A DNA stretch of 64,000 nt from Sphingomonadales bacterium. GTDB lineage: Bacteria > Bacteroidota > Bacteroidia > Chitinophagales > Chitinophagaceae. Position 1 is the stretch's first letter, and every line of letters begins with the position of its first letter. Under the pieces are notes generated by a model. It was not told the origin of the DNA. It searched no databases and saw only the letters and a list, made by a program, of their open reading frames with translations. The stretch lies in contig VHBB01000001.1 of the NCBI GenBank assembly GCA_016872155.1, positions 217,007 to 281,006 of the forward strand, given 5' to 3'. Made by a program: the position numbers and the translations under genes. Of the stretch, positions 48,768 through 53,707 are shown piece after piece.

Positions 48768-50630
48768 ATGTTTAAAGAATATGATGTAATCGTGGTGGGG
48801 GCTGGTCACGCCGGCTGTGAGGCGGCCGCGGCAGCAGCCAATATGGGCTCTTCTACCCTATTGATTACCATGAACATGCAAACCATTGCCCAAATGAGCT
48901 GTAATCCGGCTATGGGGGGTATCGCAAAAGGTCAGATTGTAAGAGAGATCGACGCCCTCGGGGGATATTCCGGCATTGTTACCGACCTATCCACGATTCA
49001 GTTTAGAATGCTTAACCGAAGCAAGGGTCCGGCCATGTGGAGCCCGCGGGCACAAAACGACCGGATGCTGTTTCACCTAAAGTGGAGAGAAATGCTCGAA
49101 AACACCAAGGGTCTTGATTTTTACCAAGACATGGTGGTGGGGCTTCTCATCAAGGGCGGTTATTGCTATGGTGTAAAAACAGGCCTGGGCCACGAAATAA
49201 AGGCCAAGTCGGTGGTACTGACCAATGGGACCTTTTTAAACGGTATTGTACATATTGGAGAAAAGAATTTCGGGGGCGGAAGAATGGCCGAAAAGGCTGC
49301 CACAGGTATTACAGAACAGCTTGTAAATCATGGATTTGAGAGTGATCGGCTGAAGACGGGCACTCCCCCGCGTATCGATGGAAGAAGCCTCGATTATTCT
49401 AAGATGGAGGAGCAACCCGGCGATCAGGAGATCAGCGGTTTTTCATATACGAATACTCCAAAACCAAAAGAACAAAGAAGCTGCTGGATCGCCTACACCA
49501 ATAATGAAGTGCACGACACGCTCAAGGGCGGCTTTGACCGAAGCCCCATGTTTGCCGGTAGAATTGATGGGGTTGGCCCCCGCTACTGCCCTAGTATAGA
49601 AGACAAGATCAACCGTTTTGCAGAAAGAGATCGGCATCAGCTCTTTATTGAGCCCGAAGGTTGGAACACAGTCGAGATCTATGTAAACGGATTTTCCACC
49701 TCGCTTCCGGAAGAAATTCAATACGACGCTCTTCGTAAAATTTGTGGTTTTGAAAATGTTAAGATGTTCAGGCCGGGCTATGCGATAGAATACGACTTTT
49801 TTCCGCCCACCCAGCTCACCTACTCGCTCGAAACAAAGCTAATCAAGCGTCTTTTCTTTGCCGGCCAGATCAATGGCACGACCGGGTACGAAGAAGCGGC
49901 CTGCCAGGGATTGATGGCGGGAATCAACGCGCACCGAGCAGCAATCAATCTCGAGCCCGTTGTTTTAAAAAGAAGCGAAGCGTATATCGGCGTTCTTATA
50001 GACGATCTTATCAGCAAGGGAACGCAGGAGCCCTATCGCATGTTTACTTCGCGGGCCGAGTTTAGAACGTTGCTTCGCCAAGACAATGCTGATTTACGGC
50101 TGACCGAATTGAGTGTTGGATGGGGTCTCGCAACAACAGAAAGAAGCGATCAGGTAAAAAAGAAAAAAGAAGAGGTAGAGGCCATAAAAAAAATATTGTT
50201 CGCCTTGTCGCTCGAGCCACAAGAGGTAAACCAATGGTTGCAGTCGCTACATGCAGCGCCGATTGCAGAAAAACAAAAAGCACAAAAGATCTTATTGCGA
50301 CCCGACGTGTCGCTAAACGATCTTGCGAATTCTGTACAAAAAGTTGGCGAAGCACTCAAGCGTTTTAGCGCAGAGAGTATTGAACAAGCGTCCATTCAAA
50401 TAAAGTACGAGGTGTATATAGAAAAAGAAAGAGAGCTCGTACAACGCATGGCACAACTCGAAGAGCTGGAGATTCCTGAAACGTTTGATTATGGAAAACT
50501 TTCCTCGCTTGGTAACGAAGCGAGAGAGAAGCTCATCAAGATAAAACCCAGAACGCTCGGGCAAGCCAGCCGTATATCCGGAATCAACCCCAGCGATGTG
50601 CAGATCTTGATGGTATACATGGGTCGTTAA
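48768..50630 (+). CDS. mnmG: tRNA uridine-5-carboxymethylaminomethyl modification enzyme MnmG/GidA
   Basis: YDVIVVGAGHAGCEAAAAAANMG, CNPAMGGIAKGQIVREIDALGG, RMLNRSKGPAMWSPRAQNDR, LKTGTPPRIDGRSLD, GQINGTTGYEEAACQGLMAGINA. The TTG start at 48759 in the track is unnecessary. Confidence 0.97.
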   Translation: MFKEYDVIVVGAGHAGCEAAAAAANMGSSTLLITMNMQTIAQMSCNPAMGGIAKGQIVREIDALGGYSGIVTDLSTIQFRMLNRSKGPAMWSPRAQNDRMLFHLKWREMLENTKGLDFYQDMVVGLLIKGGYCYGVKTGLGHEIKAKSVVLTNGTFLNGIVHIGEKNFGGGRMAEKAATGITEQLVNHGFESDRLKTGTPPRIDGRSLDYSKMEEQPGDQEISGFSYTNTPKPKEQRSCWIAYTNNEVHDTLKGGFDRSPMFAGRIDGVGPRYCPSIEDKINRFAERDRHQLFIEPEGWNTVEIYVNGFSTSLPEEIQYDALRKICGFENVKMFRPGYAIEYDFFPPTQLTYSLETKLIKRLFFAGQINGTTGYEEAACQGLMAGINAHRAAINLEPVVLKRSEAYIGVLIDDLISKGTQEPYRMFTSRAEFRTLLRQDNADLRLTELSVGWGLATTERSDQVKKKKEEVEAIKKILFALSLEPQEVNQWLQSLHAAPIAEKQKAQKILLRPDVSLNDLANSVQKVGEALKRFSAESIEQASIQIKYEVYIEKERELVQRMAQLEELEIPETFDYGKLSSLGNEAREKLIKIKPRTLGQASRISGINPSDVQILMVYMGR

Positions 50631-52060
50631 CCGTCCGTTTTTCGCAGCTGCTCCCTTTTTGTAAGTGTATTCCCTTCGGGTCCGCTTATCGTGCCGCGGC
50701 ATTTGCTGCTGCCGCACTGGCAAGCAAAGGGCTCCATACGCGGGTCCAAAAAAGTCGCATAGTCGAGGGTAAGTTCCTCGTGGGCAAAAACCGCTCGCGT
50801 GGTACAAACGTTTAATCCATCAAACACGGTGTTGGCGTCGCAACTGTGGTTTTGCGGTGCCCAGGTAGCGGGGTCTTCGTCCCAAAGCGCAAACACCTCT
50901 TCGCTAATCGGATAAGCGTAGCGTCTAAATTGAAGTTGTTGTTTCGCATTCCAACAACTATCGATATAGTGTTTGGTAACCAGGCGCTGCGCCCGTTCTT
51001 CGCCCACATAAATAATTTCGCCCACAGCCAAGTGGCGGCTGGCATAAATGCCATACCCGGCTATTGAATCTCCTTTTACATAAAAAGGTTTTTGTTTTCG
51101 TTGATGACGGGCAATGCCTTCGTTGATGATCTGTTCTAAAAATCCGCGCTTGCCGGCCCTATCAAAATTGAGTATATGATCGGCGGAGCCTTCGTATCCA
51201 TCCTCGTAAAAAACAGAGCAGGTTAGATTCATCTCTAAAAAATATACCTGTCCTTCATTGTTTACCCGAAAGTCCAATCGGCCATATCCCATGCATCCGG
51301 CTGTAATAAATATTTTCTCGCTCGCTGCACGCAATTCTGCTTCGAGGGCGGGGTCATTACAAGGAATATTAGAAGCGGGGTGTAACGATGATGTTTTTAA
51401 TGCATAGGTTTTAAACGCGTCTCCTGCCGGAAAAACATATTCGACGGGTTTATAGGTGGTGCAGGTGCCCGGTGTAACGCCGGCTGCAACGAGTACCGTA
51501 AACTCGCGGCCCTCTATGTACTCTTCTACCAACAGGCGATCAAAATCGGCAAGCAGGGTCTTGCATTTTTTTTCGAGGGCCCCTTTGTCGCGCACCAGAG
51601 AGTCTCTTTCTACCCCCAGGCTGTCTCCGGCGTAGGCGGGCTTAACAAAAAGCGGAAACCGAAGCGAAACGGCCGCTTCTTCGAGATCGGCCATATCGGT
51701 TATGGCTCTATAGGCAGGGGTGCGCACCTCTTCGCAATACGAGACATACTTCATGACCTCTTTGGGAACATCGTAGATGCGAGACGGTGGGCCGGTAAAC
51801 GGAAGATTGAGCGTTTCCAGTGCGTAGATCACATCGACACCCGGCACCTCCCAATCGGGGTATCCCTCACAGAGATTTACAAAAATATCGTACTGCTTTT
51901 TAGAGAGGGTGCGCAGTTGTTTGTGTGTGGTAAGCTTATTTAAAAAAACATGGTCTACCGTAGCCTCGGGTAATAGTGGCGAGAGGTTGCGAGGCGGATC
52001 ATAATTTTTGTAATCCACCCCGGTCGTAGAATAGTCGGGTTGCAAGACACAGACTCTCAC
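50627..52060 (-). CDS. ATP-grasp (D-Ala-D-Ala ligase-like) :: SET domain fusion protein
   Basis: N-terminal ATP-grasp: FPLFVKPAYAGDSLGVERDS, LLVEEYIEGREFTVLVAAG, VYFLEMNLTCSVF; C-terminal SET: GYGIYASRHLAVGEIIY, NHSCDANTVF, ELTLDYATF, post-SET CQCGSSKCRG. Confidence 0.88.
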   Translation of the reverse strand: MRVCVLQPDYSTTGVDYKNYDPPRNLSPLLPEATVDHVFLNKLTTHKQLRTLSKKQYDIFVNLCEGYPDWEVPGVDVIYALETLNLPFTGPPSRIYDVPKEVMKYVSYCEEVRTPAYRAITDMADLEEAAVSLRFPLFVKPAYAGDSLGVERDSLVRDKGALEKKCKTLLADFDRLLVEEYIEGREFTVLVAAGVTPGTCTTYKPVEYVFPAGDAFKTYALKTSSLHPASNIPCNDPALEAELRAASEKIFITAGCMGYGRLDFRVNNEGQVYFLEMNLTCSVFYEDGYEGSADHILNFDRAGKRGFLEQIINEGIARHQRKQKPFYVKGDSIAGYGIYASRHLAVGEIIYVGEERAQRLVTKHYIDSCWNAKQQLQFRRYAYPISEEVFALWDEDPATWAPQNHSCDANTVFDGLNVCTTRAVFAHEELTLDYATFLDPRMEPFACQCGSSKCRGTISGPEGNTLTKREQLRKTDG

Positions 52061-53196
52061 TAAACAGCTTTTGCTTTTTTGTTTTTGACGGCCTGTGGCG
52101 TTTCGGCTCTTGTAATGGCATCAAACAAGATGGCCTCAATAATTTTTGAATAGCCAATCTTTGATGCTTTGATAATGGCGCCGATCGACGTGTAATTCTC
52201 GTCTTCGCTGAGCCCACACTGGGCGTTGGCCTCAAGAACATAAAGTCGACCCGAATCTATGTCTTGTCGTATGTCGATTCGCGTGTACCCTCTGCCGCCA
52301 AGGGCCGCGTAGGCTTCGAGACTGAGTTGTTGCAGTTTTTTTCTTAGCGACGCCCTAACGGGTCCATACTCGTAGAAGTTTTCGTTTTGCGGCATGGGGC
52401 TTTCGTCCTCGTAGATTTCCCAAAGCCGATCGAACGATAAAAATCGTTCGTTGTCGGGCAGCGATGGGTGAAAGAGTCTTTCGACGGGCTCGTATACCCG
52501 GCAATGGTCGGGGTAATTAGAAGAGCCGGTAATAAAGGTGGTAAACTCGGGCCCTTTTATATATTTTTCTACAAATAGCCCGTCACCCAACAGATTCCAT
52601 CCGCGGTACCCCGACGCCAGCTCTTTTACGCGGTGCTGCAACTCTTCTTCGTTATTGATAACATTTTTTATGGAAACCCCCATGCTGCCCCCCGATACGG
52701 CGGGCTTAATAATAAGCGGGGTGCCGATCTGTTCGCAAACGCCTTTTAGCGAAGCGGGTCTTCCGCTAATGAGCTTCCAGGGTGCGGTAGAAACGCCGGC
52801 CTTGTCGAAGGCGCGCTTCATAGGTATTTTAGAGGTGGTAATGTTATAAAAATGCTGGTCCGAACCAGTATAGACCAACCCCTCTTCTTGTAGGGCGTCG
52901 ATTACCGAAACGCCGGGTACCCCATTTACCTCATCGCCATCACAAAGATTAAGCACCAGCGGGCGGCGCCCGTTGTTGGTTTGTGCAATCCGAGCCACCG
53001 TGTTGCGCATATTCTTTATGGTAACGGGTGTCCAGGTCCAGGAAAGTCCCAGTTCGTCAAATACGACCTTGTACTCGTTGATGCTATGCGTAAAGTCGTA
53101 ATAGTGCGAAAGGTTGGGGTCGTTGGTCTCTAGCTCGGGGGCCAATACCCAAACATGAAATGCAGAAAGTGGAGTGGTGGGGTTGGTGCGCTTCAT
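52060..53196 (-). CDS. ATP-grasp / D-Ala-D-Ala ligase-like protein
   Basis: GTPLIIKPAVSGGSMGVSIKNVI, GLFVEKYIKGPEFTTFITG, GGRGYTRIDIRQDIDSGRLYVLEANAQCGLSEDENYTSIG. Confidence 0.88.
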   Translation of the reverse strand: MKRTNPTTPLSAFHVWVLAPELETNDPNLSHYYDFTHSINEYKVVFDELGLSWTWTPVTIKNMRNTVARIAQTNNGRRPLVLNLCDGDEVNGVPGVSVIDALQEEGLVYTGSDQHFYNITTSKIPMKRAFDKAGVSTAPWKLISGRPASLKGVCEQIGTPLIIKPAVSGGSMGVSIKNVINNEEELQHRVKELASGYRGWNLLGDGLFVEKYIKGPEFTTFITGSSNYPDHCRVYEPVERLFHPSLPDNERFLSFDRLWEIYEDESPMPQNENFYEYGPVRASLRKKLQQLSLEAYAALGGRGYTRIDIRQDIDSGRLYVLEANAQCGLSEDENYTSIGAIIKASKIGYSKIIEAILFDAITRAETPQAVKNKKAKAV

Positions 53197-53200
53197 GCAA

Positions 53201-53707
53201 TCAGGCCACTTTTTTTCTGGCTTTTCGCGTAAGTCGTTGCAAAATGTAATCGGTAAAACGATAGTGTGCCACTTGTTCGCGATTTAAAAACGACGCGCCC
53301 TTTATTTCTCCTATACAAGAAGGTTTTCCGCAAAAACATTGAAAAGGTTGATTCATTTCCCACTCGGTAGAGGGGTAAAAAAAGCCCAGCTCTTCTTCTT
53401 CGGCAATAGAACGAAGGGCAACCACTTTCATAGTGGTTGTATCAAAAAAACAGTTGGGTTCGCAACTGTGGTTGATGTATTGCAAATAAGAAGGCTGCAA
53501 CATAATGTGCTTGTTTGTTCCTACTTGCACGGTTAGATAAGAGGGGGTTCGCGAGATACTTCCAGAACTAAACGATGCGATCTCTTCTCCTTTTTTAAAT
53601 GCGCGCTTGGTAAAAAAACAAAGCTGTTGGTTGCTTTCGTTTAACCGGGTTTCTGCAAAACCGTGATCGGCTACAAGCTTGTAGCTGGTTAGTGTTGGGG
53701 CTGTCAT
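53201..53707 (-). CDS. Stand-alone SET-domain protein
   Basis: FTKRAFKKGEEIASF, YLQYINHSCEPNCFFD, EEELGFFY, post-SET-like CFCGKPSCIGEI. Confidence 0.87.
   Translation of the reverse strand: MTAPTLTSYKLVADHGFAETRLNESNQQLCFFTKRAFKKGEEIASFSSGSISRTPSYLTVQVGTNKHIMLQPSYLQYINHSCEPNCFFDTTTMKVVALRSIAEEEELGFFYPSTEWEMNQPFQCFCGKPSCIGEIKGASFLNREQVAHYRFTDYILQRLTRKARKKVA

Follow-up and report, generated by a model that had tools for sequence, protein, structure and literature searches.

A compact three-gene cassette in the 64-kb window (the whole stretch of DNA that was analysed) probably encodes two ATP-grasp/SET modules that methylate amino acids and join them into a small metabolite, which many relatives would export. 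We give this reading a probability of roughly 0.58. The genes of the cassette, and the overlap between two of them, are as follows.

53201..53707, minus strand: stand-alone SET protein, BurB-like, 168 aa (Pfam PF00856, 2e-12)
52060..53196, minus strand: putative ATP-grasp amide ligase with a Ddl-like fold, 378 aa (Pfam PF07478, 2e-16)
50627..52060, minus strand: ATP-grasp::SET fusion, GTG start, 477 aa (Pfam PF07478, 9e-19, and PF00856, 8e-6)
52060..52060, minus strand: TAGTG overlap between the ATP-grasp stop and the fusion start, a putative site of translational coupling

The original prediction of three closely packed reading frames on one strand was borne out, as were its ATP-grasp and SET domain calls, since the Pfam scores of all three proteins exceed the curated cut-offs for PF07478 and PF00856. 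Both junctions read as had been claimed: a gap of 4 nt separates the SET gene from the ATP-grasp gene (TGA-TTGC-ATG), and the stop of the latter overlaps the GTG start of the fusion by one base (TAGTG), an arrangement that suggests translational coupling of these two genes. At its other end, the fusion overlaps mnmG tail to tail (50627-50630). The E-x-N motifs (LEMN, LEAN), the NHSC motif and the post-SET-like cysteines (CQCGSSKC, CFCGKPSC) were all found. The stand-alone SET protein was modelled by AlphaFold (AF2) with a pLDDT of 91.6; the model of the fusion reached 82 overall, its Ddl-like ligase part being predicted with confidence and its SET part less well around residues 350-400.

The three genes are inherited as one unit. 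A scan of a genome collection with the fusion confirmed 363 relatives, and among the best 80 of these 363 nearly all are titled Bacteroidota, many of them Chitinophagaceae. Neighbourhoods were compared for those 80 loci and 14 others. The order SET > ATP-grasp > ATP-grasp::SET on one strand recurs among them with varying flanks, intergenic gaps being mostly between -32 and +80 bases, and about 50 loci form an operon with few-base gaps amid changing flanks. In many loci the cassette lies tail to tail with mnmG, as it does in the window. Reading frames, linkage and motifs are kept in about 95 relatives, and dN/dS against close relatives is approximately 0.04-0.07 wherever dS is not saturated. 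Conserved linkage outside this strain, on which the original prediction depended, was therefore found.

Presence of the three genes is near-perfectly correlated as well. In a survey of 197 genomes of the family, 59 have the fusion, 60 the second ATP-grasp and 59 the stand-alone SET; all three were present in 57 genomes, one or two in 4 (some of these cases stop at contig edges) and none in 136. This co-occurrence survives the loss of linkage. In one genome (G292) the SET gene lies 1.7 Mb from the ATP-grasp/fusion pair and all three genes are retained, in four others (G406, G380, G455 and G342) the SET gene and the pair are on different contigs, and in G212 the SET and ATP-grasp genes share one contig while the fusion is on another. 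Furthermore, one locus (L091) encodes a natural fusion of the stand-alone SET to the second ATP-grasp. Together with the co-occurrence that outlives linkage, this protein provides the best evidence for SET and ATP-grasp domains working in pairs. The proposal of a two-step ligation and methylation by two such pairs is thus supported by linkage, by co-occurrence, by the natural fusion and by the genomes in which the genes are unlinked and nevertheless retained.

Full-length homologues of the fusion were also found in three other families, and none was found in the plasmid and virus collections. A divergent group (38% identity, family f17) has the order SET > fusion > full ABC exporter > further short SET, and lacks the second ATP-grasp. 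One genome, G211, has the fusion alone of the cassette genes. The fusion is consequently the sole component common to all groups seen. In G211 it lies upstream of an operon encoding an N-formylglutamate amidohydrolase-like protein, a MATCAP-type peptidase and a glutathione-synthetase-like ATP-grasp (L045:4041-9792).

A further partner recurs in part of the family. A stand-alone ABC transmembrane half (PF13748) directly follows the fusion in 25 loci; in one example (L035:6384-7274) it is a PF13748 protein with no ATPase domain. Strong matches to this half were obtained in 25 of the 197 family genomes, every one of them cassette-bearing: of the 61 genomes that carry at least one cassette gene 25 have the half, and of the 136 that carry no cassette gene none does (Fisher p ~3e-15). 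In the same search, the ABC half was absent from the genome of the window and from most cassette genomes.

To examine the ligases, the residues of both ATP-grasps were mapped against E. coli DdlB. The equivalents of K97, K144, E187, R255, D257, E270 and N272 are kept in the window proteins. All of E15, H63, S150, Y216 and S281, the residues that recognise D-alanine in this family, are replaced in both, whereas none of the five is lost from the separate Ddl that the genome encodes (L143:3451-4458). As the catalytic residues are kept and the D-alanine residues lost, both proteins are predicted to be Ddl-fold amide ligases acting on substrates other than D-alanine. They share fold and catalytic residues with Ddl (PF07478) and differ from it in these replacements, in being fused to or paired with a SET domain, and in coexisting with a separate, true Ddl. 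The assignment to the D-Ala-D-Ala ligase type in the original prediction therefore stands for fold and catalysis, and is weakened as regards a Ddl-like substrate.

The SET domains had been assumed to methylate lysines, and this premise was weakened. Among solved structures the stand-alone SET is closest to BurB (phmmer 3.5e-11), a methionine S-methyltransferase of the malleicyprol/DMSP pathway that turns free methionine into S-methylmethionine (PDB 9l4t, 9l4v; PMC12542666). The SET profile scored 69.5 bits against BurB over almost the whole length, and about 40 (40.1) bits against the next match, the best histone enzyme, over the C-terminal part; in the fold search, BurB occupied Foldseek ranks 1-3. 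For the fused SET the difference is slight (55.5 bits for BurB versus 49.5 for the KMT2D (MLL4) SET), so that both cassette SETs score BurB above MLL-type enzymes. In the tree, stand-alone and fused SETs form two separate groups (100/98), and BurB with its plasmid relatives branches beside the fused group, with modest support.

All 13 BurB residues checked from the published description (PMC12542666) agree with the chain numbering, which made a residue comparison possible. The stand-alone SET resembles BurB in being a small SET protein with the (Y)xSTE segment, HSC and post-SET cysteines, and keeps the equivalents of the SAM contact H93 and of Tyr124. However, identity is only about 25-27%, and the protein lacks the SAM contacts R42, H72, R133 and H138 and the GxG segment of the gating loop, all present in BurB itself. 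The loss of GxG, R42, H72 and R133 may mean that this protein differs in its catalysis or in how it binds the cofactor. Across relatives, any GxG within the first 60 residues was seen in 9 of 74 stand-alone SETs. NHxC, Tyr111 and the zinc-type cysteines do not vary among the stand-alone SETs. The fused SET of the window has GxG together with NHSC and post-SET cysteines, and GYG or GFG is retained in 86 of 96 fused SETs. Loss of ATP- or SAM-binding residues had been named as evidence against the original prediction; what was found is intact catalytic residues in the ATP-grasps and an absent GxG in 65 of the 74 stand-alone SETs.

Unlike the cassette SETs, BurB showed no pairing with an ATP-grasp in the clusters seen, and the rhizobial plasmid ATP-grasps that were examined have no SET neighbour. 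Most plasmid BurB-like SETs are found in small-molecule settings. One, on a 21-kb conjugative plasmid of Tabrizicola (L134:1124-6128), adjoins genes for a GHMP kinase, an SbnA/cysteine-synthase-like PLP enzyme, a DMT transporter and an alanine racemase (NCBIfam), apparently an amino-acid-derived metabolite locus. Another lies inside a polyketide cluster that resembles the bur cluster, and another adjoins an ornithine/DAP-type decarboxylase. On Rhizobium plasmid p7, a BurB-like SET annotated as hypothetical is located between an asparagine-synthase-related and a SAM decarboxylase gene (L138:4868-6780). A Streptomyces BurB-like SET had no clear context.

To the observed gene order, conservation, co-occurrence, fold and pattern of kept and lost residues we add a chemistry, an order of steps, substrates and an export route that we infer. 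Each ATP-grasp domain would use ATP and Mg2+ to convert a carboxylate into an acyl phosphate, which would then react with an amine to form an amide bond. Each SET domain would draw on SAM for a methyl group and most likely place it on an amino acid or on the growing short peptide, as an S- or N-methylation of the BurB kind. We expect the product to be a methylated metabolite that resembles a di- or tripeptide, and many relatives may export it through the ABC transporter or transmembrane half linked to the cassette. No dedicated amino-acid precursor gene is linked to the cassette, and no conserved small coding ORF that could serve as a precursor peptide was detected around the approximately 95 loci. 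A RiPP graspetide cluster was considered and rejected, as those loci have no conserved precursor-peptide gene and the ATP-grasps are of the Ddl type. We propose more tentatively, and at somewhat less than even odds, that the cassette represents a new class of peptide-forming pathway, in which SET domains, otherwise familiar mainly as histone-lysine methyltransferases, are methylation modules built into ATP-grasp peptide ligases, with an undescribed methylated peptide as product, widespread in Chitinophagaceae and other Bacteroidota.

ATP-grasp enzymes such as RimK and the tubulin ligases ligate amino acids onto proteins. The main rival to the two-module metabolite pathway, which we regard as unlikely, is a protein-modifying system, as the original prediction also envisaged, in which the ATP-grasps ligate amino acids to a target protein and the SETs methylate lysines on that same target. 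Methylation of protein lysines is what SET domains are best known for, the fused SET matches MLL-type enzymes as well, and the G211 fusion has in its vicinity an operon that encodes a glutathione-synthetase/RimK-like ATP-grasp together with a MATCAP-type peptidase. But none of the groups has a linked gene for a target protein, and ABC transporter parts and further SETs are the only additional partners that recur; the stand-alone SET is nearer to BurB than to any histone enzyme, and the ATP-grasps are Ddl-like, neither RimK- nor TTL-like. The eukaryotic TTLL12, a single protein with a SET-like domain and an ATP-grasp-type ligase domain (PMC3520985), speaks for protein modification too, yet its domain order is opposite, its ligase is of the TTL and not the Ddl type, and its SET is SETD3/4/6-like. 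Moreover, TTLL12 lacks critical residues and is reported to show neither histone methyltransferase nor tubulin ligase activity in vitro (PMC3520985). In the open-access literature we found no described SET and ATP-grasp cassette or pathway with this layout, the search returning TTLL12 and unrelated papers, and a 2014 review of bacterial SET proteins does not mention ATP-grasp, ligase or operon.

A different division of labour, with the fused protein as the sole methyltransferase and the stand-alone SET as a non-catalytic partner or substrate-delivery subunit, is improbable as an account in its own right. The contrast in GxG retention between the two SETs favours it, as does the additional, GxG-bearing SET of the divergent group; invariant NHxC, Tyr111 and zinc-type cysteines argue otherwise, along with strong purifying selection and the retention of the gene even when unlinked. 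A non-catalytic stand-alone SET is also compatible with the two-module pathway, as a sub-case that is plausible given the loss of GxG. That the cassette makes a cell-wall variant, in which altered D-Ala-D-X ligases change the peptidoglycan stem and SET methylates the peptide, seems quite improbable: the ATP-grasp fold and family are closest to Ddl, but both proteins have replaced the five D-alanine residues that the separate Ddl of the genome retains, there are no murein genes linked to the cassette, and 136 of the 197 family genomes do without the cassette. We consider an anti-phage defence or toxin-immunity cassette very improbable. Its spread is patchy, with the fusion in 59 of 197 genomes, as such a function might have it, but the three proteins have no PADLOC match and, unlike mobile defence islands, the cassette occupies the same chromosomal spot by mnmG in many loci.

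A two-module metabolite pathway of this kind would be an uncharacterised one, likely present in about 30% of the sampled family genomes, small-genome lineages included, where 3 kb of cassette DNA is retained under strong selection. If so, BurB would be joined by a second case of bacterial SET domains with small-molecule substrates, and annotating these proteins automatically as "protein-lysine N-methyltransferase" would mislead. The compact three-gene set is suited to expression in E. coli.

Two further observations were made. The genome of the window encodes a third, unlinked SET protein (L144:7778-8284; PF00856, 61 bits) between mgtE-like and lipoprotein genes, which is far from the cassette SETs in the tree. 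Elsewhere in the same phylum, two tandem Ddl-like ATP-grasps are accompanied by a GNAT and a lysine 2,3-aminomutase-like (KamA) radical SAM enzyme (L148:4312-8257, also L150 and L151, and in part L146, where the GNAT was not seen). These loci resemble the cassette in having two adjoining non-Ddl ligases with amino-acid-modifying enzymes, and differ from it in that the aminomutase-type enzyme and the acetyltransferase replace the SETs; they possibly specify a beta-amino-acid dipeptide pathway.
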